From a virus, in the IMG/VR virus record IMGVR_UViG_3300007514_000044, positions 1 to 31,701 of that record: a DNA stretch of 31,701 bases; one strand, given 5' to 3'. Shown here in pieces: positions 9,230 through 29,256 of the stretch (within the stretch, counting starts at the first letter, position 1; the number at the start of each line of letters is the position of its first letter). The translations under genes and the position numbers were made by a program. Under the pieces are notes generated by a model, which was given only the letters and a program-made list of their open reading frames with translations, was not told where the DNA came from and ran no database searches.

Positions 9230-9407
9230 TAATAAAGGATGGCTAGGATATTATAGATTTTATGAGGAGCACACCGACACTTGGATAAATGAATTAATGT
9301 GTTTCCCTTTCGGAATTTGCTATTCACAAGGAGAAAATTGGTTCTATAATCAATTGGTATTTAAATTTTTAGGATTAGAACTATCTATCTCTATTGGCGA
9401 CTGGTAA
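9222..9407 (+). CDS. Unknown small aromatic-rich protein, last rightward gene
   Basis: A 61-residue protein behind AAAGGAGTG, with its ATG overlapping the RuvC-like stop. It is very rich in Trp, Tyr and Phe (GWLGYYRFYEE, ENWFYNQLVFKFLGLE) with a C-terminal hydrophobic run, but it is too polar for a clear membrane segment. It ends at 9407, 17 bp inside the opposite-strand gene, so it marks the meeting point of the two transcription directions. No terminator is visible in the overlap. Confidence 0.6.
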   Translation: MDDNKGWLGYYRFYEEHTDTWINELMCFPFGICYSQGENWFYNQLVFKFLGLELSISIGDW

Positions 9408-12345
9408 TATAATTAGATAAGTCTCTTAGTTGTTTATTTGAGCGTTGCTTTGCCTTTGGTGCGCCATAAACTTCAGACATTGGGTAGTCGCTAAGAGGCT
9501 TTTTCTTTGGTTCTCTAACTTTCCTAGATGCAAAAGGCTTAACCCCAACTTTAGATGTCCAATGATTTACATTTTGTCTCCACTCTCTAGTTTGTCTAGA
9601 TGGGTATAATGAGAATTCTTGCATCGCTACATCTGGGAGCCCAGTTCCTCTATGTAAAGCTGGTATTGTTTTATGCTTTAATCTAGAAAATTCTACATGA
9701 AAACTATTCCACAAAGCTCTTTCTTGTTCACTCTTAGACATATGTTTATAATTTTGATACCCAAGAAGTGCTCTTTCAATAGCCGTATCAGGCATATCCA
9801 TAGTTCCACTAGCCTGAGCCCAAAACAACATTCTATTAAGTGTCGGTCCAGATATTTGATTTATAAGTCCGTACACGGCTTCACCTTGCTCTGGACCTGT
9901 AAATGATTTCCAAATTTGTCCTATTCTTTCAATAGTATCATTAGGCATCAATCTTCTTAAATCTGTATTTGTCGTTGTAGATATTAAAGCAACAGTTCCG
10001 TATATACCTGCTAGTCCTAATAAATTTCTTGCATCAGGGTTGTTTATACCCTGACCCGATACAAAACCAGAATATGTCCCCTTTAATGTTTTTGCTTGAT
10101 GAGCCGCGAATGACATAGGATAATGCATAAATTGAAATATCACAGAGCCAGTACCAGTTAAATAATCTTTTGCACCCATTTTTGGCATCCCGTCTGCTCC
10201 AAGTTCAGGGGCTGTTCCCGAAATTATAGGTGCTTTATTTACAACTGAATATTCAAACGCAAAAGTATTCACAGCGTCTTGAGCTATTTTTTTAGCAAAT
10301 GAGTATGCTTCATCCTTCCATGCTGTTTTAGGATTTGGTCTACCCGCTTCTGTAGCTCTATCTTCTACGGTTTGTCTCCATATTTGATTGTTTTTTCTTT
10401 CCATAAAAGAATGACTAAATGCAATTCTCCAAATGTTTCTTCTTAAAGCATTCTCTCCAATTCTATGAAAAACAAGTGATTTTTGGATTGCCTTAGAGAA
10501 CAATTTATCTCTAATCTCACCAGTCGGGGTTTTACCATCATACTGTATGTGCATTTTGCCTTGGTTATCCATCACCCAGTCAACTTTTGATAGATTTATG
10601 CCCTCAACAGGATTAATACCCTCAGCTACAAGCTCTAAGCCAACTGCAGACTTAGCTCCTCTTTCTAAGAATTTAAATCCAGCTTCTTCTTCTGCTGTTG
10701 CTAATAATCCCTTTATTTCTTTCTTTTGAGTTGCGTCAGGGTCTCCTATAAGGTCTATATCTGACTTCATATCGTGCCTTGCACTCCTAATGACACTCAA
10801 TCCTTGAGATGCATGAAAATAATATCCACTTAAAAAGTTTCTAGCAGCTCCAGGAAGACCCAATCCCATCGTTGTCATCACTTGAACCCCATTTATTGTC
10901 CTAGTTGCCCCATTAAACCAATCAGGTCTACCTCTAAACCCTGAAGTTGACCTACGATATTGCATTGTTAAATATTTATGCATACCCCTTATAAACTCAG
11001 GGGTTGTCTCTGTTATCTTGCCATTATTACCGAGGTCTCGTATAGCATCAATAAAGAAATCTTTTATATATGTATTTCTATTAAACGTTAAAGTTTCATT
11101 CATATATAATTCAAGAGCACTCATTGGGTCTCTAGACCACATAGCTTCCAATATCTCTAGTCTTTTTTTCTGAGACTGCTTTTCCCCTCTAAATGTGTTT
11201 AGCTCTGCCATTATATTGTTCATCTGAACTAACTCAGTTTTCGGGTCACCTTCGCCAGCAACGCTTTCAGTCTTTTCTATATGGTATCTAAGTTTAGAAA
11301 TATTATCAAAAACCCTATGAGGAAAATATGAACCATCGTACATAGATTTTTTAACAGACAATATTTGAGCATCTATTTTCCCAAGCAAATTATTCAAAGG
11401 TGTATTGTTAGTAACAAGCTCACTATTCATATCTGATTGATTTGTATGGGTTTTAACCGCAACCCTCTTAGAAGTTTGTAAAGATTGTATAAGTATTCCA
11501 CCAAGAGAATGCCTAGCAGGCTTATAATCAACAATCTTTCCTTTACTTTTTATCGCTGAAGCTGTCCCAAGCATTGTTTTAGTTCTCTCGACAGCATTAA
11601 TAATATTTAGGTTAACCTCGTCTTTAGTCCCGTTTGTTCTCTTAATATGTTCGCTCCTGGTCTTATTATCCATTTGTACCAATGTATGATAATCTACAAG
11701 AACCTTACCACCTGTGGATGGGTCATTTAATATATCCATTAATTCTTTATAATATTTAGACCTAGCATTCATATCTTCGGTGGAATTAATCTGACTTTCA
11801 TATTTCCTTATCTTATCTACAAGGTCTACCTTAAAATTGCTACCTATTTTAGTAGCAGCTCCTACATCTATAAGAGCAGCTTTTATAAAACCAGCTATAT
11901 CATACATCTGACCAGCGGCTCTCTCCCTTGATACCCTTTCAAAAGAAATTGATTTATTAGTTTTATTAAGCCAAGTTCTAGAGCTGGGAAGTCTATCGTG
12001 TACTAAAGAGGGGACTTGTGTCATTACATAAGCCTCATTCATAGAAAAAGCACCCTTCCTCATTTCATTTTCTATTCTATCTATTTCAAGATTTACTCTT
12101 TTAACATCGGCATCTGATATTACCAACCCCTCATCCCAGTTAGTTCTTATTTTTTCATACATTAGGTCTCGCAATTGCCTATCAGCTGCATTGAAGCCCT
12201 TTATTCCATAATCTTTTCCTTCTTTTGAGCCACCAGCCCATCCAAATTGTTTAGTTAAATTTGGCAAAGAATTCCAATGCCTGTTTATAGACTGAAGTCT
12301 TTTTCTATTCTCTAATACTTCTTTTCTTGGATTACATTGTGACAT
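9391..12345 (-). CDS. Large virion-type protein, likely ejected internal protein
   Basis: A 984-residue protein with AAGGAGT (12351-12357) before the ATG. It is helical, basic and mostly polar, with a few hydrophobic segments: LGLPGAARNFLSGYYFHA (about 493-510), SVIFQFMHYPMSFAAHQ (about 729-745) and LLGLAGIYGTVALIS (about 774-789). These could be transmembrane or amphipathic segments used in forming a DNA conduit. The FQFxxYPxS stretch resembles a segment seen in phage large polyvalent proteins, but I am not certain. It is the last late gene, directly after the giant polymerase-like gene with a 10 bp gap, so it is probably packaged in the capsid like T7 gp16 or N4 gp51/52. No lysozyme or protease motif was found. 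Confidence 0.65.
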   Translation of the reverse strand: MSQCNPRKEVLENRKRLQSINRHWNSLPNLTKQFGWAGGSKEGKDYGIKGFNAADRQLRDLMYEKIRTNWDEGLVISDADVKRVNLEIDRIENEMRKGAFSMNEAYVMTQVPSLVHDRLPSSRTWLNKTNKSISFERVSRERAAGQMYDIAGFIKAALIDVGAATKIGSNFKVDLVDKIRKYESQINSTEDMNARSKYYKELMDILNDPSTGGKVLVDYHTLVQMDNKTRSEHIKRTNGTKDEVNLNIINAVERTKTMLGTASAIKSKGKIVDYKPARHSLGGILIQSLQTSKRVAVKTHTNQSDMNSELVTNNTPLNNLLGKIDAQILSVKKSMYDGSYFPHRVFDNISKLRYHIEKTESVAGEGDPKTELVQMNNIMAELNTFRGEKQSQKKRLEILEAMWSRDPMSALELYMNETLTFNRNTYIKDFFIDAIRDLGNNGKITETTPEFIRGMHKYLTMQYRRSTSGFRGRPDWFNGATRTINGVQVMTTMGLGLPGAARNFLSGYYFHASQGLSVIRSARHDMKSDIDLIGDPDATQKKEIKGLLATAEEEAGFKFLERGAKSAVGLELVAEGINPVEGINLSKVDWVMDNQGKMHIQYDGKTPTGEIRDKLFSKAIQKSLVFHRIGENALRRNIWRIAFSHSFMERKNNQIWRQTVEDRATEAGRPNPKTAWKDEAYSFAKKIAQDAVNTFAFEYSVVNKAPIISGTAPELGADGMPKMGAKDYLTGTGSVIFQFMHYPMSFAAHQAKTLKGTYSGFVSGQGINNPDARNLLGLAGIYGTVALISTTTNTDLRRLMPNDTIERIGQIWKSFTGPEQGEAVYGLINQISGPTLNRMLFWAQASGTMDMPDTAIERALLGYQNYKHMSKSEQERALWNSFHVEFSRLKHKTIPALHRGTGLPDVAMQEFSLYPSRQTREWRQNVNHWTSKVGVKPFASRKVREPKKKPLSDYPMSEVYGAPKAKQRSNKQLRDLSNYITSRQ

Positions 12346-12355
12346 TAATTACTCC

Positions 12356-15300
12356 TTAATTTCTACAAGCAGCTCCAGTGGTTTGGTTGTAACTAGTTTC
12401 ATTAAGTTCTCTTCTTAAATATTCATTCATATTATTTTTCTTAGACCAGAACATATATCCTGTCTCCCTTGAGTCACTACCCCAAAGAGTTCCCTTGGTG
12501 TATTTGTATGGGACTTTTAACCCTTTTCTTTCATAAGCCATCTCAACATAAGGTCTAAAAGGACTAGGTGATAATTTCATTACTGTAGACCACATCGGGC
12601 CAAACCTTTTTTGATGCATATCCCATTGAGAAACTCTCCCCTCAAGACCTCCCTTAATAGCAGCTGCGTCAGGCTGTACCTCATATCCTAATAAATAACT
12701 CTCAAATTCAGATGCGTATTTTAATGCGTCTGAAACCATAGAGTCTCTTAGGTATCCATTTTCATTTAACCATCCAAATACATGCTTATGTAATCTTTTA
12801 TTAATTCTAAAGAATGGTATACCCTGGTCTTTAACATCTAAAGAGGCTTTTACAACTGGGTCTGGCATCAACAATAATAATGATAAATCATTTATTGTAT
12901 CTATTGTTTCCTGATGGTCTCCACCTCTTATTTGACCTTCTACAATCTTACCCTCTATAAATCTATCCATCAATTTTCCTATTTCATTATAAGCAAAAGC
13001 CCTCTCAGTTTCCCATATTCTACCAGATTCAGCTGGAGCCTCCTTATTACTAGTCATAGCCCTTCCAAAGTTCTTCAATATATTCCTCTTCACCGTCTGA
13101 ATAGCATCAGCTACATCTAAGCCTTGTTGCCCAGTTCTCATAGCTATCACATCAGGAGATACATATCTAGTGGCATTTAACCAAGAGATTCCTTGTACTG
13201 CGTCTACCTTTGTTAAAGGAACTGCTTCCATAGGCTTGTTAAGAACTAAATAGTCACGATTCTTTGAGAGACCCTTGATAGATTCTCCTTTCCGAACTAC
13301 TCCAACAAAATTCAAAGCATCTCCAGCTGCTAATTTAGCAGAAGTAATATCTCCTACATCTTTAGGCAATGAATAAATAAATTGGTCATTATATTTGTCT
13401 GTATTTTTGTATTCTTTTATATTCTTTTTATATTTGTAGTTTTTAGTATCAAGTTTTACCACAGTATCCTTTCCTTCAACAGTGGTAGTCGTTCCTATTA
13501 TTTGATTTCTTATTTTAGACTCTTTTACGGTTGCAATAGCCAAATCAAGAGTATTTAACTCATCAGTTGCTCTAGATAATTCTTCTTTATTTGGAAACCT
13601 TGCTCCCTCAAGAAATGCTTTTCTACTCATAGCAATAGCAAGTCTAGAATTTAAAACGTGAAGAGTCGCATCGGTCATCATTGATTGATAAATTTCATTA
13701 CCATCGGTTCTCATAATAGAAGGAATCATTTCATCTACAATTTCACGCCCAAAAGCCTCTCGACTATCTCGATTTACCCCAAAAGCCTTTAATAGAACTG
13801 TAGCTTCAAATATATTATTAGCCATATCCTCAGGTGTGAATTTATTTTTAGGATTTGTTATACCTTCAGGAAGACCCTCAACCATTTCAGGATTTCTAAA
13901 GGCATCACTCCCTTCAAACATTCTTCGTACCGCAAACCCTGAATTATTAGACTCCCACCTTTCTTGACTTCTAGTCTCTATATTTTTACTACCAGTGGTA
14001 AGTTTTATTACTTCTTCAGGCTCTGGGATACCCCTACCTTTTTTGATAAGCTTCATTAACTTACCCATAGCCTTAAATTCATCCATAGACTCCACTATAC
14101 CAGCTTCTTTATTTTGTCCATAGAAAAATCTTATAACTTCTCTTAGCTTTGTTTGTTGTTCTGCTCCGCCACCTTGATATTTTCTAACTAAATCTAGAAA
14201 TATTGTCTTAGAAGGAGAATTAAAGAAAGCTTGAATAGACCTATGGGTATCTTGTATGTCTTGAATTGTTACATTTCTTTTCTTTCCACCTTCATGAACA
14301 TCGTTAAATATTCTAGACGCACCTTGAAGTCTTCTGCTAATTGCTTGTAATATATCAACCTGTATTTCTGGATGAAGAGTTGATAGTTCCATAGCCTTAC
14401 CATGTTCAGTAATTGAACTATGTTGGAATGGAAGTTTAGAAGTTGACTGACCGTCTCCAAATAAAAGTGCTCTAAAATTAATGTCTCCCAACATTGATGA
14501 TTTTCCACCAAAGAAATCAACTGTATTTTGACCAGTAGTTCCAACTCTATGATTTAAATTAAGTGTACGATTTATATTCTCTGGGCTCATAATAAAATTA
14601 AACGCTTGAAAGCCTTTACTACCATCAACCCCATCAATTCTTAACTCTAAACCAAGATTATTCATCCAAGTCAAAGGCTGATTTAAACCTATAAGAGTAC
14701 CTATTTGCCTTCTTCTTGCTTCAATGCTTGCCATATAATCACCAACTGATTTTATTCCCTTTTCACCAGCTGCTCCAGATGATACACTCCTATCAAAATT
14801 AAATCCAAATGGATTAATATCAGGCTTATGCCTATCCATTGTAGGGTAGTCCCTTATTTGAGCAGTTTGAAATAAAGCGTTTTTAATAGCCTGCATTGGA
14901 AGGTCATTGAATGTATAAAAATGGTCTGCATCAAAATCTCTTTGATGAACCACGGCAGTTTCATAATCATTAGAAATCCAATTATTGCCATACTCTTTGC
15001 TGACAATATCCCTTACCCTGTTAATAACCATATCAGCTGATTTTCTAGGAATAGCTAATGTATTAATAGCTACGTCAACCCCACTTCCCTTAAGAGCAGA
15101 AACCACATCGCTTATAAGAAATACATCCTCTCCTATTCTATTTTGAATATTATCAATAACACCTTTAGCCTTCATTATTTCCGAATCATAATTCTTATTC
15201 CAATTTTTAGGAAGATTTTCCAAATCACCTCTTCCATCGGTTGGGTCAATATGAACCCATTCGTCTCCCTTCATTTTCTCTCTGTATAAATTAGCATTAT

Positions 15301-18300
15301 TATATCCAACTACAACATCAACCCCGCCAACCTTTACAACAAATCTCAATTGATTTACATCGGTAACCTGCTTAGTACCCCAATCATGAGGAGCAAATAC
15401 TTCTCCTAATCGTAGTTGTCTTCGAGAACCTCCACCAGCTTCAACATAAATTGGCATTTTTAATACCTGACGTGGTTTTAATGTTTTACCGTCAACTGTG
15501 GTAATCCCAAATATTTCATCATGAGCTAAATAACTAGCAAGACCTGTTCTTTTTTGAGGTCTCCTTACATTCTCAATAACCTTAGAAGTCCATAATCTAT
15601 TAATCCCAGAAGAAACAGCAACGTTAGAAGTGTTTGCCCCCAACTCTAACATAGTTTGTATTAAAGAAGCATCATCAGAGATAAATCCCCCTGAATCCTG
15701 TTTTTGCCATTTGTATAAAGCTTCAGCTATTTCAGTTCTTGCATCTTGTTGCATTCTCCTTCCAAGACCTATGCCCTCATTGACAACATCTCCCAGCCCC
15801 TGCCATATCTGTGTATAAGACAGAATCTTTCGTGGCATGAGATTTGTAACAGTGTTCCCAGCTGAGACTGTAGTCCCAGGATGGTTGGTAAATCCTATGC
15901 TAATTGATTCTGGGTTAGTAATATCTATAATATTACCCTTAATATCTCCCTTTTTTATTGTGGTCTCCCAAGATGAATCTTCCATTAAATGCTTATCACT
16001 AAACTCCATATCTTTCAGACTCTTGTCTCCTTTTAATGAGCCAAATGTTTTCAAAGAACTTCCAAACGCTATCTGGTCAACACCTAGTTCTAGCATTTTA
16101 GGTTCAAGCCTAGGAGAATAAATGTACCATGTCTTTTGTTGAAGTGCTTCCATTCCATCCGCACTTACATAGGAAATTTTAGGTTTCCATCCATTAATAA
16201 CCTGAGTTCTTGTTGGGTCAAAGACTTGATTTGTTAAAGCAGAATACACCATAGCTTCAGCTTGTGAAATATAAACAGCTGCATTTTTTGTAGACACTGT
16301 GTCGGGATTCCTTTTAGTCCCACCTATTGAATCATACTGAAAACCATCTTCACCTTGACTTATTTCGTTTTTCATAGCCTTAATTGCATCTTTTAAAGGC
16401 TCAGTTTCCCTTGAGACTTCAGCTCCTTTTCCTAAATCTCCAAGAGGAGAGGCTAATTCATGCTCTAGGTCTCTTATAAGACTTCTTCTTAAATCAAATG
16501 CTCCATCTTTAACTTCATCAGCAATCCCTAATATTTTAGTAGATGTTAGTTTTTTCTTAGCGTGTTTTCTTACTATTGGATTGGGGTGATTTTCAGCTAG
16601 GGCACTTAAGGAAACCTTTGAAACAGCAGTCTGATTTTGAGCTTCAAATACCTTAGAATACTTAACCATCTTATCTCCCCAACTTGCAACATGGTCTCCA
16701 TTTATATGTATTCCAAGTTTAGCATTAGGCTTATTAAGACCAAATAATCCTAAGAATTGAACTGGATTCATATGGTTCATATAATAAGCTGCGAACTTTC
16801 TTTCGACATTAACTGCTTCAGTAGATGTCTCCGATAGTGTTTTAAATGCCTGCTCGAAGCCATCCCTAACAACTTTTAAATTCTCTTTTTGCTCTAAACT
16901 TAGAGACTTGCTTTTCATAAGATTGTCTAATTTTGCTAATGTATCTCCATAAAAACTTTTAAAAACATTATGGAAAGCTGGCATTTGACTCTTTGGTATG
17001 TAAAATCCATTTGAGGCAGATACAACCATTGGAACTATTCCACCTTCCCTAGCCGCCTTATGAACTGGCATTATATGTTCATCACTAACATCTCCTCTCT
17101 GTCTAAGAACCTCTAAATCTCCCTCTCTAACAAATGGAGCCTCCATTAGCTGCATTAATTTCTTAGGGTCTTTCATAATAGAATAAATATTAACTTCATT
17201 TCCTTCAATAGCTGTTGTTAATATCTCTCCTAATTCTACACCTTCAGATTTTAACTGGTCAATTAGCTTATGCCTTTGCGTTAACCTTACAGTCTGAGTA
17301 GTTTCAACCCATTTTCCATTTCTATATTTAATAACCTCTCTTCTCGCTTGACCCATCTGACTGTTAATTATATGGTATAAACCATACTCCATAAACTCTT
17401 CCAACCTTTGCGTTTTTTCACTATTTTTAAGATTAGCAGAATTAATCTTGCTAGTTGCAATCTTAATTAATTCATTAAAATGAATGGTATTATCAGCTCC
17501 ACCAGCTTTGAGCTTAGAAATATGAGTCAAGACTGATGAACTCCAAGGAGACTTATCCTTATCTAATCTTATCTCAGGACCGAGAAAATAATAATCAGCG
17601 AGCTCTTGCATCGTTGATTTATGATGTGTCTCTTGAAGTTTTAAATAAGCCTCGGTATCAGTTATTAGAGTAGCACTTTTATCTCTAGAAATAGAATGTA
17701 GGTCTATAAATTTTCTAGCTTCAGTTACTAAATTAATCCATTCACCAACACCTTTATTTTTCTCATTAAACGAACCTATTAACTCATCTAAGCTCTGCTC
17801 CGTTGTCATTTTATTTTTACCAGTTGCGCTAAGAAGTTGATTCCTTAAGTGATTATAATACATCCAAGCCTCTGGTCGTGTATTAATATGCTGACCAGCC
17901 TGGTATATATCATTTAGAATATTAATCATTTCATAGTCAGGCTTTTGTATTTCAAATATAGCTCTTTTCAAAGCAGAAGAACCTTCAGCCCCAAGAATAG
18001 ACTCTATATTGACAGTTCCTCCCCCTTCTCCTCTCTCTGATATAGCAGCTTCTATATCTGACCTAAGAGCTTTAACAATTTTTCTGCCCTCTTTTACTAT
18101 TTCCGAACCTGCTCTATCACCGCCATATTTAACATTAACTATTCTCTCAATCATATTAACAGCTTCATCTACCCTAGCCGTATTTGCTTCTGCATCTGCC
18201 CCAAAAACGGCAAAGTCCCTAAGAGCCAATTGTAAATCATCTATAACTTTATCGAAATGATTCATCTCAATTTTTTCTCTTAGATTATTTGATAATCTTC

Positions 18301-21300
18301 TAACGCTTTCCGAAGTTTGAGTCCACCAAACATCAGGAATCATTCTATGCATTCGCTTAATTGAATCAACGCTAATTTCAGGATTCCCAGGTTGAGCATC
18401 TACGTATTCAATACTTCCACCTAAATTGCCAACGTATCCCTCAGTAGCCTTCTTATACATTTCAACAACTTCTGTTCTCTCTTTATCCGTTAGCTTTATT
18501 CCCATACTTTCTTCTTGGCTAAGAAAATAATCATTTAATCCTTTTGCGCTCATAACCTGAATCTTATTTCCATGACGTATTCCAAGACCCATACTTTGTA
18601 TTTCAGAAAGAACGTGAATCTTAGAAGCATCGTGATGCCTTCCAAGTTCATGTGCATACCATCTTTGCTTTACGCCTATCGCTAAAGGTGACATCTCAGG
18701 ACCAGTTTCAAGATTGCCTTTATCTATTGAGTCTCTTAAATCCCCAAGCTTTGATAAATCTATTTTAGGAGATTCTTTTGCGGTTATGGAATCTGAGACT
18801 GGAGTCTTGCCGATAGAAACTAAATCATGCAATAATTTAAGAGTTTTTATATCAGCTGCATGCTTTTGACTATTTGACTCAACGTCTTTACCCTTTCCAT
18901 CTGTAAGCTTTGATTCAATTATTTTCCAAGAAGGAACCGTGTCAGTTAAGTCTCCAAACAAAACGTTAATAATTTTTCTAATACTACTCTCGTATTGCGT
19001 TAGATTTTCAGCCCCACCTAGAATCCTTAACCAAGAATTCTCTATCCTCGCGGCGCTTCCCATATTAATAGATGACATCATCGCAGGTGAAAACATATCT
19101 ACAGGGTTCGCATCAGCGAATTCAGCAAACATCTCTTTAGAGTATATCTCCTCTATTTTTGTCTTCTCTTCTTGTATAATTTTATCAACTTTTTTCTCAT
19201 CCTCTTTTCTCCACTCCCACTTCTGACCTTCCTTTGGCTCTTCTCCTATTCCATATAAATTATTAATTCTTTTTCGCAACTGAATTAATTTTCTAATATT
19301 AAGACTAGTCGCATCAGGCTGAGTATCACCCATAAGTGGTAATTGAAGTCTAGTTATATCATCCGAACTATTATCTACATAAGGATAATCTACTCCCAAC
19401 TCTTCCTTAAGTCTAGTCTGAACATTCTTTAAAAATTCTTTTATTTGAGTTGTTACTTGATTTCCCATTGATATCTCTAAATGAGTATCAAGCTTACCTC
19501 TACCCGCATCATGGTATCGAACCATCTTCCCGTTTTCATTTGGAAATTCTGTGTTACCCAACTTAGTATTAAGCTCTGCTCTTAGCTCTTGGGACAAATG
19601 CTCTATCTTAAAAGGTTTGTAATTAGGGTCTAAGCCTGACTTCATAGACTCAATCATGTTATAGTACTCCACAAGAGCTTCTATATGAGGTTCAGAAACC
19701 CTATCAATAGGAACATATTCTAACTTCTTTCCATGTTCGTCAACAGGTTCACCGTTTTTATTAAACTTTACACTTTCAGTATACTTTCTAATAGTATCCA
19801 TAAATGGTTTGAGAGCGGCGTTTGAAGAAAGAGTTGCTCCCTGCAATTGAGTTATAGCCTCTACCTCATTCCACATCAGCCATTTACTCAAATCCATACC
19901 ATTTTTATCTTTTGGCTTTAGACCTGTTATATGGAATAGTTCATAATAATCATTAAGGTTTGTTCTATCTTCTTTTCCATGATTCCACTCACCTTTCATT
20001 CTTGTGAAATAAGCACCAATCATTAAGTGAGTCAACAATTCTTCTGGAGGTATCCTAGCCCACATTCCATCCTTAAACATCTCAACATTGTTAGCAGCTG
20101 CACCCATAACCATCCTAGGAAGAGAGCCCCTTATAGTTCCAATATCCTTTATCCATTCCTTACCCCATTTTCTAAATCCTTTACTACCAAATGCTCTAAT
20201 TTGCTCTGCTAATTCAACCTTATTTTCGTGAGAAAGTTTGTCCATTTGATGCTTGAAAGAGCCCTTTCCCCACTCTACAACTTTCCCACTGCTTAACACA
20301 AATGTGTGACCCTTTAATAGATTAGAGCCTGCCTTTTCACCTCCATACATAATACCTAAATATTTAGTCAAAGCATTTTCATCCATCTTCTTATAATTAA
20401 CATTATTCCACAATCTTATAAATCTTCCACCCTCTCGAAGTGTTCTTTGACCTCCTCCTCCAAAGTATCTAATGGCTGGGAATGCTAAAGATAAATAAAG
20501 AGAATGCTTTAGAGTGCTACCCCAGTCCATATCCTCACCAGACTTTTTAGCCTCAACCTTACCAGCTAAAGAGTTATACGATGTAAGTAGAACCATGTCT
20601 TGAGCTGCCATTCCAACATATTTATTCAGACCTTGCCTAAATTTTGTTTGATTGACTCCACCCATTCCTTTGGCAACCCATCTAGAAATAGAATTAATAT
20701 GGTCACCATTCTGTACTCCATTTCTAAAGTATCCAGCTATTTGTCTTGTTAAAGCTTTGTTCCCAGATGTTACACCAGCATCTGTTAGGGCTTGACTAAT
20801 GGCTGGGTTGATAAATTCTTCTATGCTATCTAACGACTTTGTATCAGCTCTGCCTTTAGCTGCTATAGCTGCAGCTTTTTGTTTCATTAATTTTTCTTTA
20901 AAAGTTCCTCTTATCGCATTTGAAACTGAAGCTGCTTGCTTTGAGGTAAGACCTTTCTTAACTCCCAACTCAGAAAGACCCTCAACCCCTAACTTATCTA
21001 AGGTAGTTTTTACGGCAGTATCTGCTGACCTTGAGAAGACTTGACTTGTGCCCTTTCCTGTGAGGACACCAACACCCTTACTGAATCCTTTAGCCATTCT
21101 ACCAAAAGCACCATAAGGATTAACTAAACCTGCGACCTCACCAATCGCCGCAGCTATTCTTTCGTTAGTATCTTTCTCTTCCCATTTTCTACCATACTTC
21201 TTTTCTAATTCAGTATCAGTAGTAAGGCTTAAAACTCCAGCTGTTGATGCGTCAACGGCATGCCATAGACCTGTTCCTATTGCATCAGCTAAACTAGCCT

Positions 21301-21439
21301 TTCTCTTAAATGTTGGGTCAATAGAAGTTAGCTCACTCCTACGCTCATCTATTATTTTGGCTAAGTCTGTGTCTGAAGCCTGGATTCCTTGCGCCTCAAA
21401 ATGACGCCTGAGTCTTTGTGTTAATAAGTCTTGTGGCAT
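12356..21439 (-). CDS. Giant protein with single-chain double-psi-barrel RNA polymerase motifs; candidate virion RNA polymerase
   Basis: This 3027-residue protein fills almost a third of the window. Two segments match the catalytic halves of YonO/crAss-like polymerases. LELGVDQIAFGSSLK ends at K1797 and resembles the beta-like barrel with its active lysine. AIPRKSADMVINRVRDI (2129-2145), then HQRDFDADHFYTF (D2168, D2170, D2172), resembles the beta-prime barrel whose three aspartates bind catalytic Mg2+. Downstream, AIKNALFQ and ARRRQIGTLIG (about 2241-2251) fit the helix and trigger-loop region. The first ~1500 residues are helical and unassigned, with a hydrophobic stretch near residues 90-115. 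It starts in TAATG overlap with the upstream gene and lacks a clear SD, suggesting coupling. No lysozyme motif was seen. Role: transcription of early phage genes after ejection (inferred). Confidence 0.7.
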   Translation of the reverse strand: MPQDLLTQRLRRHFEAQGIQASDTDLAKIIDERRSELTSIDPTFKRKASLADAIGTGLWHAVDASTAGVLSLTTDTELEKKYGRKWEEKDTNERIAAAIGEVAGLVNPYGAFGRMAKGFSKGVGVLTGKGTSQVFSRSADTAVKTTLDKLGVEGLSELGVKKGLTSKQAASVSNAIRGTFKEKLMKQKAAAIAAKGRADTKSLDSIEEFINPAISQALTDAGVTSGNKALTRQIAGYFRNGVQNGDHINSISRWVAKGMGGVNQTKFRQGLNKYVGMAAQDMVLLTSYNSLAGKVEAKKSGEDMDWGSTLKHSLYLSLAFPAIRYFGGGGQRTLREGGRFIRLWNNVNYKKMDENALTKYLGIMYGGEKAGSNLLKGHTFVLSSGKVVEWGKGSFKHQMDKLSHENKVELAEQIRAFGSKGFRKWGKEWIKDIGTIRGSLPRMVMGAAANNVEMFKDGMWARIPPEELLTHLMIGAYFTRMKGEWNHGKEDRTNLNDYYELFHITGLKPKDKNGMDLSKWLMWNEVEAITQLQGATLSSNAALKPFMDTIRKYTESVKFNKNGEPVDEHGKKLEYVPIDRVSEPHIEALVEYYNMIESMKSGLDPNYKPFKIEHLSQELRAELNTKLGNTEFPNENGKMVRYHDAGRGKLDTHLEISMGNQVTTQIKEFLKNVQTRLKEELGVDYPYVDNSSDDITRLQLPLMGDTQPDATSLNIRKLIQLRKRINNLYGIGEEPKEGQKWEWRKEDEKKVDKIIQEEKTKIEEIYSKEMFAEFADANPVDMFSPAMMSSINMGSAARIENSWLRILGGAENLTQYESSIRKIINVLFGDLTDTVPSWKIIESKLTDGKGKDVESNSQKHAADIKTLKLLHDLVSIGKTPVSDSITAKESPKIDLSKLGDLRDSIDKGNLETGPEMSPLAIGVKQRWYAHELGRHHDASKIHVLSEIQSMGLGIRHGNKIQVMSAKGLNDYFLSQEESMGIKLTDKERTEVVEMYKKATEGYVGNLGGSIEYVDAQPGNPEISVDSIKRMHRMIPDVWWTQTSESVRRLSNNLREKIEMNHFDKVIDDLQLALRDFAVFGADAEANTARVDEAVNMIERIVNVKYGGDRAGSEIVKEGRKIVKALRSDIEAAISERGEGGGTVNIESILGAEGSSALKRAIFEIQKPDYEMINILNDIYQAGQHINTRPEAWMYYNHLRNQLLSATGKNKMTTEQSLDELIGSFNEKNKGVGEWINLVTEARKFIDLHSISRDKSATLITDTEAYLKLQETHHKSTMQELADYYFLGPEIRLDKDKSPWSSSVLTHISKLKAGGADNTIHFNELIKIATSKINSANLKNSEKTQRLEEFMEYGLYHIINSQMGQARREVIKYRNGKWVETTQTVRLTQRHKLIDQLKSEGVELGEILTTAIEGNEVNIYSIMKDPKKLMQLMEAPFVREGDLEVLRQRGDVSDEHIMPVHKAAREGGIVPMVVSASNGFYIPKSQMPAFHNVFKSFYGDTLAKLDNLMKSKSLSLEQKENLKVVRDGFEQAFKTLSETSTEAVNVERKFAAYYMNHMNPVQFLGLFGLNKPNAKLGIHINGDHVASWGDKMVKYSKVFEAQNQTAVSKVSLSALAENHPNPIVRKHAKKKLTSTKILGIADEVKDGAFDLRRSLIRDLEHELASPLGDLGKGAEVSRETEPLKDAIKAMKNEISQGEDGFQYDSIGGTKRNPDTVSTKNAAVYISQAEAMVYSALTNQVFDPTRTQVINGWKPKISYVSADGMEALQQKTWYIYSPRLEPKMLELGVDQIAFGSSLKTFGSLKGDKSLKDMEFSDKHLMEDSSWETTIKKGDIKGNIIDITNPESISIGFTNHPGTTVSAGNTVTNLMPRKILSYTQIWQGLGDVVNEGIGLGRRMQQDARTEIAEALYKWQKQDSGGFISDDASLIQTMLELGANTSNVAVSSGINRLWTSKVIENVRRPQKRTGLASYLAHDEIFGITTVDGKTLKPRQVLKMPIYVEAGGGSRRQLRLGEVFAPHDWGTKQVTDVNQLRFVVKVGGVDVVVGYNNANLYREKMKGDEWVHIDPTDGRGDLENLPKNWNKNYDSEIMKAKGVIDNIQNRIGEDVFLISDVVSALKGSGVDVAINTLAIPRKSADMVINRVRDIVSKEYGNNWISNDYETAVVHQRDFDADHFYTFNDLPMQAIKNALFQTAQIRDYPTMDRHKPDINPFGFNFDRSVSSGAAGEKGIKSVGDYMASIEARRRQIGTLIGLNQPLTWMNNLGLELRIDGVDGSKGFQAFNFIMSPENINRTLNLNHRVGTTGQNTVDFFGGKSSMLGDINFRALLFGDGQSTSKLPFQHSSITEHGKAMELSTLHPEIQVDILQAISRRLQGASRIFNDVHEGGKKRNVTIQDIQDTHRSIQAFFNSPSKTIFLDLVRKYQGGGAEQQTKLREVIRFFYGQNKEAGIVESMDEFKAMGKLMKLIKKGRGIPEPEEVIKLTTGSKNIETRSQERWESNNSGFAVRRMFEGSDAFRNPEMVEGLPEGITNPKNKFTPEDMANNIFEATVLLKAFGVNRDSREAFGREIVDEMIPSIMRTDGNEIYQSMMTDATLHVLNSRLAIAMSRKAFLEGARFPNKEELSRATDELNTLDLAIATVKESKIRNQIIGTTTTVEGKDTVVKLDTKNYKYKKNIKEYKNTDKYNDQFIYSLPKDVGDITSAKLAAGDALNFVGVVRKGESIKGLSKNRDYLVLNKPMEAVPLTKVDAVQGISWLNATRYVSPDVIAMRTGQQGLDVADAIQTVKRNILKNFGRAMTSNKEAPAESGRIWETERAFAYNEIGKLMDRFIEGKIVEGQIRGGDHQETIDTINDLSLLLLMPDPVVKASLDVKDQGIPFFRINKRLHKHVFGWLNENGYLRDSMVSDALKYASEFESYLLGYEVQPDAAAIKGGLEGRVSQWDMHQKRFGPMWSTVMKLSPSPFRPYVEMAYERKGLKVPYKYTKGTLWGSDSRETGYMFWSKKNNMNEYLRRELNETSYNQTTGAACRN

Positions 21440-23385
21440 TATTTACTTAAACTATCGAAGAAATCATCTTCATCTTGTTTCTTAGTTCGATAAACATCAT
21501 ATAAACCATGACCTTTAAGTATGGTGTTTTTCAATATACCGATATTAGAAAGAGATTCCTTAAGTTTATCTCTTTGATAATCTCCACCTCTCCAATCCCA
21601 ATAATCAGGACCGTCTCCAGCTGTGTACTCCCAATCTATATTGTTATTTTGCCCTTCCTCTGCTAGAAATTTCTTAGTATTAGCATCCACCTGATTCCAA
21701 AAGCTTGGGTCTCTGAGATATTCAGCGAATTTGTTATACTTTGGATTAAACCAATTGCCGACCCATGCATCATTATCTTTATCTCCAACTCCAATCTTAG
21801 AGCCCATTTTGAAATCTTTACCAGTCCCCCTTAGGTTATCTACGAAGTGTTCAGCCTCTAACTCAGCTAGACCCGCAGACTTTCCTTGAGACCTTGCCCT
21901 ATCTTTATAATAATCTTTCATAGTTGTCAATAGGATAGTCATAGCCCCTGAAGATTTTGAAGCCTTTTGTAAATCTGTATGAACTTGGTCTAAAAAAGCC
22001 TGACGAGAAATATCTGTCGAAGCTTCATACCCAGATAGTGTAGATAAATTCTGATAATGACTTCCCCCTGCTCCCCCAGCTCCACTTACTGATTTCGCAA
22101 AGTCAGCTAACATCTGTTTTGTCTTTTGATGTTTCTCAAAAAGAGCTTTATTTGTTATATCTGGAGTCACAGGTGAAGTATCTCTTTGAAATAAATACCT
22201 TTGCTTCCATATTTCATCAGGGTCTGTTATCAAGTTTCCCTTGTCATCCTTATACTCTGGGGTAAATTTCTCATTCCATTCAGCATCGAGATTTGCAATA
22301 ACTTCATTGTTCTTAGTAACAGAATCTAATATACTCTCAAAAGCATCTGATTTAAAATATGTGTCCCCCTCGGTTGCTTCTTTAGCTGGTATCTTTATAT
22401 CACCAACTTTTTTACCTTCTGGGATTTTATCCCCCTCTTTATAAAGAACCGCATCAACCGCAGGTAATGTCGCTCTATCCCACGCTCCTGGGGGAATAAA
22501 CCCAATAGCTTCTAGAAATTGCATTTGTTTCTTAGCCATATCTCCAACAGCTGTTGCTCCGTATGGATTGTCTTTCTGTATTTTATATAATTCTTCTATC
22601 TCTCTAAGCATAGATTCCATACCGCCCTTACCTGCCACTGGGTCTGTTTGGTAGTTTACTATTGTATCAAATAATTGACTAGCTAAAACAGTTTGACCAT
22701 CTCCTATAATTTCCTCAGCTAAATCAGTAAATTGCTCTTTATAAACAGATGCATTCTCTCCAAGATTTTGAAAATTAAATTTTGAGGTTAACATATGAAA
22801 TGCATCCATCTTATTTCTATCAGCCTGAGCCTTCCCCATATTCACATTTTCATTAAATGTTTGCATAGCGTGTGAACGAGCTGCTGCTTTCTCAGCCTCT
22901 TCTTGCATTGCTCTATCGTGAGCGTATCCCATGCCAGCTCTGTGAATAGCCCCCTCTTCAACCATCTTAGTTCTCGCAGTAGCGGCTTCTTCTTTAAATT
23001 CTGTCAGCTCTCTTTCATGCTCATATCCCGATTCGTATTTAGATTTGTCATGAAGTTGCCTAGCCTCTTCTATTTCTTTGTCAAATCTGAAACCAGCTTC
23101 AGTTAGCAACCTTTCTTGAGTTGACTCATAAACAATCCTATCCATTTCTCTATCAGCTTCAACATCTAACTCTAAAGCTCTTTGTAGGTCATCTATATAA
23201 TCCCTAGTTAGAGTAAAACCTCTTTCTCTTTCGCCTTCCATAGCCTCAAAGTCAAGTCTTTGCTCTTGCATTTCTACTTGAGTTCCAAGCTCTAGCTGTC
23301 TGAGTGCTCTGTCTAATTCTCTTTGTTGATGTTTTTCTTGTACATCAAGACCTTGTTGTAATATTGATAATAATTGACTTGCCAT
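21439..23385 (-). CDS. Long coiled-coil virion protein, likely internal/ejection protein
   Basis: This 648-residue protein is, for roughly its first 190 residues, almost pure charged helix (EKHQQRELDRALRQLELG, DVEADREMDRIVYESTQERL, GYEHERELTEFKEE). That predicts a long coiled coil. The remainder is mixed and includes a Gly-rich stretch (SGAGGAGGS) near residue 440 and an acidic, Trp-rich C-terminal part (PDYWDWRGGDY). Coiled-coil proteins of this size next to a Gly/Ala-rich membrane-active protein match the gp14-gp15-gp16 internal core arrangement of T7-like phages. It starts one base after the preceding gene's stop, with no good SD, so coupling is likely. No enzymatic motif. Confidence 0.6.
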   Translation of the reverse strand: MASQLLSILQQGLDVQEKHQQRELDRALRQLELGTQVEMQEQRLDFEAMEGERERGFTLTRDYIDDLQRALELDVEADREMDRIVYESTQERLLTEAGFRFDKEIEEARQLHDKSKYESGYEHERELTEFKEEAATARTKMVEEGAIHRAGMGYAHDRAMQEEAEKAAARSHAMQTFNENVNMGKAQADRNKMDAFHMLTSKFNFQNLGENASVYKEQFTDLAEEIIGDGQTVLASQLFDTIVNYQTDPVAGKGGMESMLREIEELYKIQKDNPYGATAVGDMAKKQMQFLEAIGFIPPGAWDRATLPAVDAVLYKEGDKIPEGKKVGDIKIPAKEATEGDTYFKSDAFESILDSVTKNNEVIANLDAEWNEKFTPEYKDDKGNLITDPDEIWKQRYLFQRDTSPVTPDITNKALFEKHQKTKQMLADFAKSVSGAGGAGGSHYQNLSTLSGYEASTDISRQAFLDQVHTDLQKASKSSGAMTILLTTMKDYYKDRARSQGKSAGLAELEAEHFVDNLRGTGKDFKMGSKIGVGDKDNDAWVGNWFNPKYNKFAEYLRDPSFWNQVDANTKKFLAEEGQNNNIDWEYTAGDGPDYWDWRGGDYQRDKLKESLSNIGILKNTILKGHGLYDVYRTKKQDEDDFFDSLSK

Positions 23386-23386
23386 A

Positions 23387-24187
23387 CTAACCCACTATAT
23401 TTTGATACCATTTTGTTTTAAGATTTCTTCTAGAAGCTTTCATTTCTGCTATCTGTTTATTGGTTTGGTCTATAAAACTTTCATATTGACCTTCAAACTT
23501 AGCCTTACCGTGCTCATATATCCTCGCCATAGAATCGGATGATAATAATCCTGCTTCTAATTCTGTCTCCTCTGCGAATTTTATATCAGTTTCTACCTCA
23601 CCTGACCTTAGTCCCCCTGTAGCAGCAACTGCCTTTTCTCCCTTACTTGCAATAGCTTGAAGATTTGCTTCAGATTTAAAACCACCCTGAAGCATTCCAA
23701 TGTCTCTATTTTCTTCAGCAACTTCTATTTGAGCATCTTTCATTTCACCAGCGGCGACTTGAGCTTCTTCAGTAGATTCTATTTGCCTTCCAATAGCAGC
23801 GTGTTGTTGTTGTGCTTGCTTTGTTCTATTTAAAGTTCCACCAATCATTTGAACTGCTCCTAAAGCTGCCCCAATTGGATTAGCCTTAACAGCCATTCCT
23901 ATAGCTGAACTTCCTATCTTTGAACCTAATCCCTTTAATAAAGAACCTGCCACCTGACCAACTCCACCCAAACCAGCCGAAGGGGCTCCACCTGGAAGTA
24001 GGCTTGTTAAAGTGTTACCTAAATCTCCCATATTAAAAGGGCTTTGATATCCTTGAACTTGAGGTAATCCTACCTCATCCACCTGGTTACCTGTCCAAAG
24101 ATTGCCAGCCCCGCCGCCCATCTGTCTAAATTGTGGTCTAGTCCATGGCTGTGTATATTGTTGTAAATTTTGACCTGGTTGTAACAT
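23387..24187 (-). CDS. Gly/Ala-rich virion protein, gp14-like candidate
   Basis: I prefer the ATG at 24187 over a TTG at 24214, because the ATG forms TAATG with the preceding stop. The 266-residue protein has a Gln/Pro-rich start (MLQPGQNLQQYTQPWTRP), then a Gly/Ala-rich, weakly hydrophobic segment (GSSAIGMAVKANPIGAALG, about residues 92-110), followed by a helical coiled-coil half. This build is typical of small phage ejection proteins that insert into membranes, such as T7 gp14 and P22 gp7. The assignment rests on composition and position only. Confidence 0.6.
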   Translation of the reverse strand: MLQPGQNLQQYTQPWTRPQFRQMGGGAGNLWTGNQVDEVGLPQVQGYQSPFNMGDLGNTLTSLLPGGAPSAGLGGVGQVAGSLLKGLGSKIGSSAIGMAVKANPIGAALGAVQMIGGTLNRTKQAQQQHAAIGRQIESTEEAQVAAGEMKDAQIEVAEENRDIGMLQGGFKSEANLQAIASKGEKAVAATGGLRSGEVETDIKFAEETELEAGLLSSDSMARIYEHGKAKFEGQYESFIDQTNKQIAEMKASRRNLKTKWYQNIVG

Positions 24188-25050
24188 TATTTGTCTTTTT
24201 CTCCAGTCCCCCAATATTGTAGAGGATTGCCAAGATTAAATCTTTTATAATTTTCCCCAAATTGTTCAATCATTCCTTCCTGATAATCTTCTATTCCAAG
24301 CTTTAACATATCAAAAACATCTATTTCTTCTTGTTTAGGGGCTCCCATCTCTCCAGACTCTACTATCTGTGGCTCCACGTCAGGAACAGCTACATCTTGT
24401 GGCTCTTCTCTTCTTGGTGTCATGTCTTTTACTAATGAATCATAATCAGCAAGGACATCTATAAAATTTACCATACTATAGTCGCCATCTTCTCCTCTTA
24501 TCTTGTACAAACCGCCATATTCATTGACAACATTCATAAAATCTCCGTAGTCCTTACCAATTTTCTCTTGAACAGTTTGGAAGGCTTTAAACTGGTCTTG
24601 AACCTCTCTAGTCTTTTTTCTCTCAGCTTCAGCGGCTCCTTCGTATTTATCTAGGTCGATACCCATTTCTTTAAATACTTTATCTTGTTCTTTCTTTTCA
24701 GTAAGATACTCTCCTGTAAATATATCTCCAGTCTCAGGGTCTTTATATCCAACTTTAGGGATAAACCCAGTGTCTCCAAGCCAGCTACCTTCTTCTGTCA
24801 CAACCTTTTCATATCCAAGCTCTGAAGCAATCCCTTCAGCTTCCTTATTTTGTTTATCAATTCTATTTTGAGATTTAAGTATATTTGTAAATTGGGCAGC
24901 TGCCTCAGTCCCCGCGGTGAGAGCTTTTGCTTGTTTATCTAGACCTATAATCCCAATTTCACTCATCTTTCCATGATGAGCTATATCTGAAAGCTTTCTC
25001 CCAACATTGGTCTTCGCTTGCTCGAGCTGTTTATACTTATTTTGAGGCAT
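24187..25050 (-). CDS. Unknown virion-region protein
   Basis: A 287-residue acidic protein with GGAG about 9 bases before its ATG. The first 60 residues and residues 120-165 are predicted helical, and the C-terminal third includes a Pro/Glu-rich linker (RREEPQDVAVPDVEPQIVES) and a final amphipathic helix. It has no recognisable domain. Its place at the head of the internal-protein block, after a 55 bp gap, suggests a virion or scaffolding-type role. I cannot be more specific. Confidence 0.55.
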   Translation of the reverse strand: MPQNKYKQLEQAKTNVGRKLSDIAHHGKMSEIGIIGLDKQAKALTAGTEAAAQFTNILKSQNRIDKQNKEAEGIASELGYEKVVTEEGSWLGDTGFIPKVGYKDPETGDIFTGEYLTEKKEQDKVFKEMGIDLDKYEGAAEAERKKTREVQDQFKAFQTVQEKIGKDYGDFMNVVNEYGGLYKIRGEDGDYSMVNFIDVLADYDSLVKDMTPRREEPQDVAVPDVEPQIVESGEMGAPKQEEIDVFDMLKLGIEDYQEGMIEQFGENYKRFNLGNPLQYWGTGEKDK

Positions 25051-25600: not shown

Positions 25601-27674
25601 AAGAACACTTCCTTTCATTCAGTTCTTTTATCGCTTCTACTAACAGAGGTACAAGTTTTTCGTACTGGACAGTGTGGTATTGTGGGTCAATAGGTGCTTC
25701 TGTCACAGCTTCAGGAAGTACTTTCAATACCTCTTGAGCACTTACGCCAACTTTCTTCTTACTTGTGTCATACCCAAGACTACCTGCTATCTCATTAGGT
25801 TGATAATGAAATCCATTTAATGAGCATACTTTCTCTAAAGCATTTTCTATATTACCATATTTATTTTTCAATCTATCATCAGAGTAATAAGCAGTTACTT
25901 CATTGGTAGCTCTTATCTCTCCTGTCGTTCCAGATGCATTAGTACCAACACCAAAAGAATCAAACCTTACATCATCTGTTGTATTAAGGCTAAGAGAATC
26001 TCTACCATTAGAAGCATTTAAATCAGTTGAGCCTCCATCCCATTTACCATCAGTATTAGTAGTGTAAGAAGGGGTTGCCCATACGGCTGTTCCACTTGAT
26101 GAATACTTTAAAAATTGTCCGCTTGAACCACCACTAGGAACATGCTTATTTCCTGCGCTTGTTGGATGTGAATAATTGTTTGCGTCTGTTGGTGCATGAG
26201 TTGATTGACTATGAGTATAAGCTGTGTTCCAATTAGAAGCATTATAACCCGATAAACTAGGGGTAACTGATATTTTATTGTTAGTCGGTCCTGATATTGA
26301 CCATTCAATTCCATCATTCTCTACAAATCTTAAAGTATCTGGACCTGATGCGTTTGCTGACTCCTCTACTTCACTTCCATTCCAATCGTCAATTGTAACT
26401 ATACCATTAGTTAAAAGACCGCTAGTATCAACAGTGGAAGATATTTTTATAGTATCTCCTCCACCTGTGGCACTTTCTTCTATATTTATACCTGAGCCTT
26501 GCTCTAAGGCTTTAATTGTATCAGCATCATCTAAGAGAGAATAAACTTGAGGACTACTACTCTCATTTGTAGCAAGAGTTGACGATACATTTGTTGTATT
26601 AGTGTCTGTAGAATTGATATTTAAACCGCTTGATGTAATATTTGTATTAAGAGTAAACCACTTCAAGGTATTGGCAGACTCATCCCAACCTAAGACTCTA
26701 TCTCCACCAGGGTCTGATAAGCTCTCTAATCCCAAATGACTTAAGGATATATTCCCAGAAGTGGTAACTGTACCAGTTAAACCAGTTCCTGTTCCAACTG
26801 ATGTAACAGTCCCAGTATACTGGTCAGATGAAGATATAGTAATAGTATCTGCATCTGTTCGAGAGATTACCGTTCTACCAGCCCCTTCAAGTTTTATAGT
26901 ATCCGTTGATGTTGGATTAATTCCTGCTAAATTAAAATTTGCACCCCCTGAAACAGTAGACGCATTTATAGAATAAGTAGTATTGTCATTATCATTAGCG
27001 GTTACACAAGATACTTTAGCTTTCCCACTATAAGCACCACTATTAGCAGGTGCGACAACAGTCCATGTGACATTTTCAGTATCAACGAAAGCTATCCCAT
27101 CTGCTCCGTTAGCGGCTGCAGTGGTTTTATTAGAGTCTCCATCATCATAAGCATACACAGTATCATATCTATGTAAACTTACACTTTGGTCTTGTGCGGT
27201 AAACTTTATAAATGCATTACCATTTGCATCTTCATCATCTTCTATTAAAAGATTATTATTTGCTGAGGCTACATTATATAGAGTAGCAGAATCTGTCCCA
27301 GCTCCACCAGCTTCGATTAGACATACATGACCACTAGGTAAATTACCATGTTGCCCTCCAGTTCCAGGTGTAGATGCTCCATCAATAATCTTAGTTAATT
27401 TAGTAGATTGAGCACTATCAACATAAGATTTAGTAGCTAAATGAGCATTTTGAGTAGGAGTTTTCCCTGATATCGTTGCTTCAAAAGGGACTGTCCCATT
27501 ACTTAAAACCGCACCTGATGTAGAACCAACTGTCCTCTTAATTATTGTGCTTATAGCTTTTTCTTGTACAATAGCAGGCTGTGGGGTCTCTTGTACTTGT
27601 TGGACTTGAACATCATCAGATTGAGAAGAAAGTGTATTTCTTATTCGTCTTTCTTCTTGTGTCATCCCAGGCAT
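25587..27674 (-). CDS. Tail fibre with C-terminal S74 intramolecular chaperone
   Basis: This 695-residue protein has the build of a receptor-binding fibre. An N-terminal part carries the 'PTQNAHLATKSYVDS' segment (about 73-87) common in fibres, followed by a long Ser/Thr/Gly/Asn-rich repeat-like shaft with GTVTSVGTGTGLTG. The last 97 residues are a peptidase S74 chaperone: YYSDDRLKNKYG, then GVSAQEVLKVLPEAV and YEKLVPLLVEAIKEL. In this family the chaperone trimerises the fibre and then cuts itself off between Ser and Asp; here S598 and D599. The mature fibre would be about 598 residues. Its ATG forms TAATG with the nozzle-like stop. Target receptor unknown. Confidence 0.88.
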   Translation of the reverse strand: MPGMTQEERRIRNTLSSQSDDVQVQQVQETPQPAIVQEKAISTIIKRTVGSTSGAVLSNGTVPFEATISGKTPTQNAHLATKSYVDSAQSTKLTKIIDGASTPGTGGQHGNLPSGHVCLIEAGGAGTDSATLYNVASANNNLLIEDDEDANGNAFIKFTAQDQSVSLHRYDTVYAYDDGDSNKTTAAANGADGIAFVDTENVTWTVVAPANSGAYSGKAKVSCVTANDNDNTTYSINASTVSGGANFNLAGINPTSTDTIKLEGAGRTVISRTDADTITISSSDQYTGTVTSVGTGTGLTGTVTTSGNISLSHLGLESLSDPGGDRVLGWDESANTLKWFTLNTNITSSGLNINSTDTNTTNVSSTLATNESSSPQVYSLLDDADTIKALEQGSGINIEESATGGGDTIKISSTVDTSGLLTNGIVTIDDWNGSEVEESANASGPDTLRFVENDGIEWSISGPTNNKISVTPSLSGYNASNWNTAYTHSQSTHAPTDANNYSHPTSAGNKHVPSGGSSGQFLKYSSSGTAVWATPSYTTNTDGKWDGGSTDLNASNGRDSLSLNTTDDVRFDSFGVGTNASGTTGEIRATNEVTAYYSDDRLKNKYGNIENALEKVCSLNGFHYQPNEIAGSLGYDTSKKKVGVSAQEVLKVLPEAVTEAPIDPQYHTVQYEKLVPLLVEAIKELNERKCSCGSK

Positions 27675-28864: not shown

Positions 28865-29256
28865 TACATCTCCTCATAAATAAAGGGAATATTTTCAAGT
28901 CTTTTTCTTTTAGACTTGCTATTAAACATAGTAGCAACCCTGTGATTTAATTTATTATCATAATAAACATATTTATCAAATTTATGACGCTTCCATTTAT
29001 CATCATCTTCCAACATTAAATAAAACTCAGGAATTATTTGAGCATCAATACGTTTTTTACCAATATTAGTGCTCATTGTTTTTAAAAGAGACTCCCACTC
29101 TCCACTGTGAAGCTTATTAAAAATTGGGTATATAAGAACATCTATGTCTTTAGGGTTCTTTTCACCTCTCGCAAAACTGCCACACAAAAAATATCGGAAA
29201 TTACTTCCATACTTTTCTTTACAGTTATTAACTACCTTGATTAGTTCTTTCCGCAT
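28864..29256 (-). CDS. Minimal nucleotidyltransferase (MNT-type)
   Basis: I chose the ATG at 29256, giving 130 residues; a GTG at 29292 would overlap the upstream gene by 65 bp. The Pol-beta-like signature is complete: GSFARG (26-31), DID (D37, D39), and a third acid D71 in RIDAQII. The family moves NMP groups onto proteins, RNA or small molecules. It is close in size to MNT antitoxins, which AMPylate a HEPN toxin, but no HEPN partner lies nearby. It sits between two nozzle-like genes and is joined to the next by TAATG, so it is expressed with late genes. Its substrate is unknown. Confidence 0.75.
   Translation of the reverse strand: MRKELIKVVNNCKEKYGSNFRYFLCGSFARGEKNPKDIDVLIYPIFNKLHSGEWESLLKTMSTNIGKKRIDAQIIPEFYLMLEDDDKWKRHKFDKYVYYDNKLNHRVATMFNSKSKRKRLENIPFIYEEM

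Follow-up and report, generated by a model that had tools for sequence, protein, structure and literature searches.

Does the giant late protein encoded by this viral DNA contain a single-chain RNA polymerase (RNAP), and would the phage carry that enzyme in its virion? The window, meaning the whole stretch of DNA analyzed, is a 31.7-kb IMG/VR record. A sequence-only reading had pointed to two segments of one 3027-residue ORF as the active-site halves of such an enzyme, and had proposed a virion-packaged polymerase in a phage that is not crAss-like. The elements on which that proposal was built, namely K1797, the IPR block, D2168/D2170/D2172 and ARRRQIGTLIG, were all located at the residues assigned to them, with the aspartates lying in RDFDADHFY (residues 2167-2175). 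The evidence described below leads, with high confidence, to a virion-carried, single-polypeptide DNA-dependent RNAP of the two-barrel (double-psi beta-barrel) type within a late protein of ~3,000 residues, its packaging and activity being the predicted parts of this reading. The branch to which the enzyme belongs includes the virion RNAPs of crAss-like phages and the eukaryotic QDE-1/RDR enzymes. The core is situated mid-chain, with ~1,570 residues N-terminal and ~460 residues C-terminal of the modelled region (Table 1).

Relatives and conserved residues

A DFDxD string in a protein of this length is only mildly unusual, at a rough composition-based estimate of a few per cent, and therefore proved little by itself. 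Single-sequence searches of the giant protein gave no match in Pfam, PHROGs, the PDB sequences, 50,697 phage records or, with peptide patterns, IMG/VR. When IMG/VR was scanned for DNA words coding for DFDxDHFY, nothing was returned, and the words for DFDADHxY returned seven matches that a frame-by-frame check assigned to chance. Bacterial and archaeal genomes, scanned twice in search of clues to the host, likewise yielded no relative. The dnaB helicase gene of the window led to 22 IMG/VR records, and comparison of the polymerase region with these records revealed homologues in five (E values from 2e-22 to 3e-5). In the larger relatives a giant ORF of 2,837-3,213 aa occupies the corresponding position, and in those of the dnaB-linked records that extend far enough it measures about 2,840-3,170 aa and precedes an ORF of 0.9-1.3 kaa. 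A second round, based on the alignment of one clade and a pattern that contained Asp, yielded 37 loci, 32 of them outside the first set. A tblastn search of the family proteins against the 50,697 phage records gave no match; the crAss control matches 143 records. The most divergent giant homologue, in G020 (L065, 13764-20000), carries DWDGDK, is cut by the contig end and has a downstream neighbour of 1,280 aa.

DxDxD is found at the homologous place in 13 of the 13 giant proteins reached via dnaB, window included. This count is unbiased because the records were picked by their helicase and not by the motif. The aspartates are separated and followed by variable residues (DFDADH, DNDGDR, DFDADM, DYDADK, DNDFDK, DFDFDK, DFDLDK, DWDGDK), and the alanine at the fourth motif position of the window protein, remarked upon earlier, is ordinary variation, since A, G, F or L occurs there across the family. 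In a 40-sequence alignment of the core, with a mean column identity of ~20%, only eight columns are invariant: K1797, two glycines, P2131, D2168, D2170, D2172 and D2308. In the same alignment, K1769 reaches a conservation of at least 90%, and crAss RNAPs also have a conserved lysine at the matching place. It should be mentioned that the Asp conservation in the 40 rows is partly due to selection, because the Asp-containing pattern was used to retrieve most of the other rows; the lysine column is free of this bias. The expectation that the aspartates would be conserved among homologues was borne out, for DxDxD in the motif-unbiased set (13/13) and for all three aspartates, as also for the lysine, in the alignment (40/40). 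As judged from sequence, this conservation lifts the DFDxD motif above chance.

Table 1. Positions of the giant gene, its predicted motifs, its late neighbours and the candidate control elements. Coordinates refer to the window unless a relative is named.
Feature	Coordinates	Strand	Basis
Giant late protein, 3027 aa from ATG	12356..21439	-	ORF
Predicted single-chain two-barrel RNAP core, residues 1568-2568	13736..16738	-	AlphaFold2, Foldseek, hhalign
Beta-like barrel motif DQIAFGSSLK, residues 1788-1797; K1797 is the predicted catalytic lysine	16049..16078	-	Invariance, hhalign
K1769, second near-invariant lysine, 28 residues upstream of K1797	16133..16135	-	At least 90% conserved
IPRKS block, residues 2130-2134, ahead of the beta-prime-like barrel motif; P2131 invariant	15038..15052	-	Alignment
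DFDAD, residues 2168-2172, predicted Mg2+-binding catalytic triad, beta-prime-like barrel	14924..14938	-	Invariance, crAss alignment, model
ARRRQIGTLIG, residues 2241-2251, helix in model	14687..14719	-	AlphaFold2
Partner late protein, 984 aa, next gene downstream	9391..12345	-	ORF; conserved position in relatives
Late protein, 648 aa, stop overlapping the start of the giant gene	21439..23385	-	ORF
Late protein, 275 aa, Gly/Ala-rich	23387..24214	-	ORF; Pfam match not found
AACYTGGGCA-type pair	L045 (G011) about 9,937-10,589; G016 37,142/37,743; G018 30,952/31,584; G015 9,552/10,120
AACYTGGGCA-type pair, likewise in G022, G021 and G020
Candidate promoter sequence AACCTGGGCA	Divergent control region of G011, about 49,900-50,600

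Comparison with two-barrel RNA polymerases

The profile of the family was compared by hhalign with a reference profile built from the annotated records of ten crAss-like RNAPs. The score of 60.5 (P 1.4e-5, probability 80%) is far from the 18.9 obtained with the reversed profile and the 13-15 of five column shuffles. In the alignment, K1797 falls on the lysine of VKVG in phi14:2, and a D-G/A-x-x-Y block upstream is matched as well. Taken by itself, the DxDxD half scores 28.0 (P 0.026) versus 15.5 reversed, and here the R-x-P block of the family is matched with YRIPTQ of the crAss enzymes and DxDxD with their DFDID. Thus, the HMM-HMM comparison agrees with the proposed relation and has clean negative controls. 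The window protein alone gives no significant match to the crAss profile, so the assignment rests on the family.

Residues 1568-2568 were modelled by AlphaFold2 with the 40-row alignment at modest confidence (pLDDT 60.9, pTM 0.65), the motif regions being mostly above 75. The context of DFDAD is a predicted strand-helix-loop-strand, and the ARRRQIGTLIG helix of the model possibly corresponds to the bridge-helix region. In a Foldseek search of the PDB, the best match to the window core is 6VR4 chain A, the virion RNAP of crAss phage phi14:2 (E 8.8e-9, probability 1.00), which is also the sole match below 1e-3; P74-26 gp62, P23-45 gp64, Pol II and the poxvirus RNAP come next. The model of a relative (locus L078; pLDDT 82.6, pTM 0.80) also has 6VR4 as its best PDB match (2.1e-8), followed by QDE-1 and RDR2. 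It is noted that the two models are not fully independent, because one alignment is common to both. The relation to two-barrel RNAPs suggested by the sequence-only reading is thereby upheld in both models, and the two catalytic halves are predicted to share one pocket. The global TM-score to 6VR4 is low, at 0.29 of the query, and since the whole-chain TM-scores are low only the core is claimed as shared; the domain arrangement of the models relative to 6VR4 is uncertain. In the viral model library, crAss-like RNAP proteins are among the 19 matches at E values up to 1e-3. The top matches there are without names in the table, and their accession series suggests that they are ocean-virome bins. 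Several crAss-like RNAP proteins (L118, BFVD matches) are labelled in public records as DNA helicase or nuclear pore complex-like protein.

These structural matches place the family in the second two-barrel RNAP clade of PMC10770324, which consists of the phage and plasmid single-subunit RNAPs and the RNA-interference RNAPs. Like the phi14:2 enzyme (gp66 in the literature, gp077 in KC821624), the present protein is a single chain in which a beta-like lysine motif precedes a beta-prime-like DFDxD motif with similar flanking blocks, and it is a giant late-operon protein that adjoins other large late proteins. However, the similarity in sequence is seen by profile only, the fourth motif residue is A rather than I/V, and the spacing from K to D is 371 residues here versus 296 in phi14:2. 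QDE-1 and RDR, the eukaryotic RNA-interference polymerases that were the next matches of the L078 model, belong to a branch grouped with the phage single-subunit RNAPs (PMC10770324), but they differ in host, function and surrounding domains. The P23-45 gp96 vRNAP and gp64 nvRNAP and P74-26 gp62 are likewise two-barrel phage RNAPs. P23-45 has a two-barrel RNAP fused to a giant virion protein (PMC10770324); this gp96 is a tape measure fusion of a long-tailed phage with the RNAP N-terminal, whereas here the RNAP is central and the gene set is of the short-tailed type. Considering the homology, both catalytic signatures, their order and their conservation, all established by computation, it is nearly certain that the giant protein contains an RNAP core.

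Genomic setting and kind of phage

The giant gene and the genes of 648 and 984 aa belong to a single late operon with tail-type genes, and the early genes, including that of the DnaB helicase, are on the plus strand and convergent with it. The giant gene is near the promoter-distal end of the operon. The gene of its 984-aa partner starts ten bases after it, and in relatives a protein of about 880-1,050 aa follows the giant gene in nearly all contigs that reach that far; no family match to the 984-aa protein was found in Pfam or PHROGs. The slot upstream of the giant gene is mostly occupied in relatives by proteins of 270-830 aa, and from its position we infer an ejection-type role for the 648-aa protein. 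The 275-aa protein gives the impression of a possible T7 gp14-type internal virion protein. Shine-Dalgarno sites precede many genes of the window, as had been read from the sequence; none is present before the giant gene, which is probably translationally coupled. Elsewhere in the window (27674-30679), a tail gene that is a single ORF of 934-939 aa in relatives is split into ORFs of 483 and 396 aa. A 142-aa nucleotidyltransferase-like ORF (28864-29292) lies between them on the same strand, and no Rfam intron match was found at this split gene.

Two relatives, G011 (59.7 kb) and G016, have overlapping ends. The markers of G011 include a terminase (phrog_38), a portal (phrog_156) and a head protein (phrog_1328). 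The portal of the relative matches only podovirus-type records that are not crAss, such as Thalassomonas BA3, and the best full-length matches of the terminase are to Vibrio, N4-like and Alteromonas AD45 phages; the major head protein has no match. By the portal and terminase the phage is not crAss-like, in agreement with the earlier view of it, and its genome of about 60 kb compares with about 100 kb for crAss-like phages.

The layout resembles that of N4 (Schitoviridae), in which gp50 is likewise a virion-type giant of ~3,000-3,500 aa encoded promoter-distally in a late operon convergent with the early genes. The N4 terminase is also phrog_38 and the N4 portal a weak phrog_156 match, these families being distantly related to those here. 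However, the N4 vRNAP is a T7-type enzyme with a fold unrelated to the two-barrel core. Identification of the giant protein as a polymerase of this T7 type was rejected, because PF00940 (the T7-type RNAP domain) has no match in the window, 12 relatives and further records while N4, the positive control, matches. The T7/N4-type domain was also not found in the two relatives with terminal overlaps. When the N- and C-terminal parts and the upstream and downstream partners were compared by hhalign with the virion proteins of phi14:2 and N4, the scores were no better than those of reversed controls.

Predicted packaging and activity, and a candidate promoter

The late-operon position and the precedents of crAss001 and P23-45 argue, by analogy, that the giant protein is very likely packaged in the virion. 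The virions of crAss001 contain RNAP-associated proteins, for which ejection ahead of the DNA and refolding in the cell have been proposed (PMC10172136). By the same route, the giant protein would share the capsid with the neighbouring late proteins, enter the cell by extrusion either together with the DNA or ahead of it, and refold there. D2168, D2170 and D2172 would then hold Mg2+, K1797 (with K1769) would join in transcription, and the polymerase would transcribe the phage early genes before, or without, use of the host RNAP. Transcription of the early genes by the giant polymerase is considered probable; for the crAss-like RNAP the same role is given in PMC7886860, citing a structural study. 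The remainder of the chain and the ~980-residue neighbour may serve packaging, extrusion or promoter recognition.

It is unlikely, yet deserves consideration, that the two-barrel RNAP is no virion component and is made late, for late genes or assembly. Packaging is deduced here from indirect evidence, and the fact that in relatives one motif occurs on both sides of the divergent control region means that a single polymerase might serve both directions. Against this, the giant gene adjoins the last gene of the structural operon, the size of the protein goes far beyond the needs of a polymerase, and such giant fusions of this type as are known belong to the virion (PMC10172136, PMC10770324); nor could a polymerase that appears only late set the infection going. 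The variability of the fourth and sixth motif positions (A/G/F/L and H/R/K/M), together with divergence to about 15-20% identity, would fit a degenerate two-barrel RNAP kept without catalysis as a structural ejection protein. This we consider very improbable, since the four residues predicted to be catalytic are all invariant amid change almost everywhere else, a sign of selection for catalysis. That the motif is fortuitous, in a giant ejection or tail protein with no relation to RNAPs, as the chance occurrence of DFDxD and the silent single-sequence searches might allow, is already contradicted by the conservation, the profile comparison and two structure searches, which all indicate RNAPs, and it can be practically dismissed. 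For the virion-carried polymerase, the invariant residues predict a core that is in all likelihood catalytically active.

The divergent control region, which was compared in relatives, is situated to the left of the window and outside it. In seven relatives whose early/late divergent region is intact, two sites with AACYTGGGYA or a close variant as their core face outward, spaced 554-652 bp apart, one before the early operon and the other before the late operon. Upstream, the late copies also have a block of the type CAAAAT-N-CTACAATTTTTCTTG in common. In leave-one-genome-out scoring, both G018 sites were recovered with G018 unused in defining the motif. The pair is thus a candidate phage promoter or operator as judged by its sequence and placement. 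The late-promoter pattern of one clade was not found in the 22 records examined from the other clade; promoter and polymerase could have diverged together, or the motif could belong to something else. Recognition of the AACYTGGGCA element by the polymerase is a tentative suggestion. More speculative still, and rather doubtful, is the broader proposal that an uncultured podovirus-type lineage of ~52-60 kb outside Crassvirales solved the N4 problem independently with a two-barrel injected polymerase, with AACYTGGGCAT as the promoter that starts its early and perhaps its late programme.

Giant virion fusions of two-barrel RNAPs were already known, whereas the family, its genomic setting and the unrelated carrier protein are new. 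No description of the giant-protein family was found in the literature searched, a scope outside of which most subscription journals and preprints fall; unannotated relatives are present in public databases. Single-chain two-barrel RNAPs are few and very diverse, and they bear on the origin of the cellular and RNA-interference polymerases. A whole, widespread family is added to them here, with dozens of IMG/VR members that existing profile libraries do not detect and that tblastn does not find in annotated phage records. Its phage lineage has no cultured relative and is unrelated to Crassvirales by portal and terminase. Giant injected polymerases of unrelated catalytic folds, in N4 and in these phages, would share one genomic place, and the family offers compact cores and a candidate promoter for in vitro work.

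Two minor features of the relatives may be added. A pyrimidine-rich TTTCTTTTCTTTC tract occurs close to where the late operon begins in L045 (G011; about 9,720-9,780) and in L054 (G016; about 17,890-17,970). In the early region of L045 (G011), near the divergent junction, ~1.8 kb (about 10,465-12,260) has little coding content and possibly holds structured RNA or small genes.
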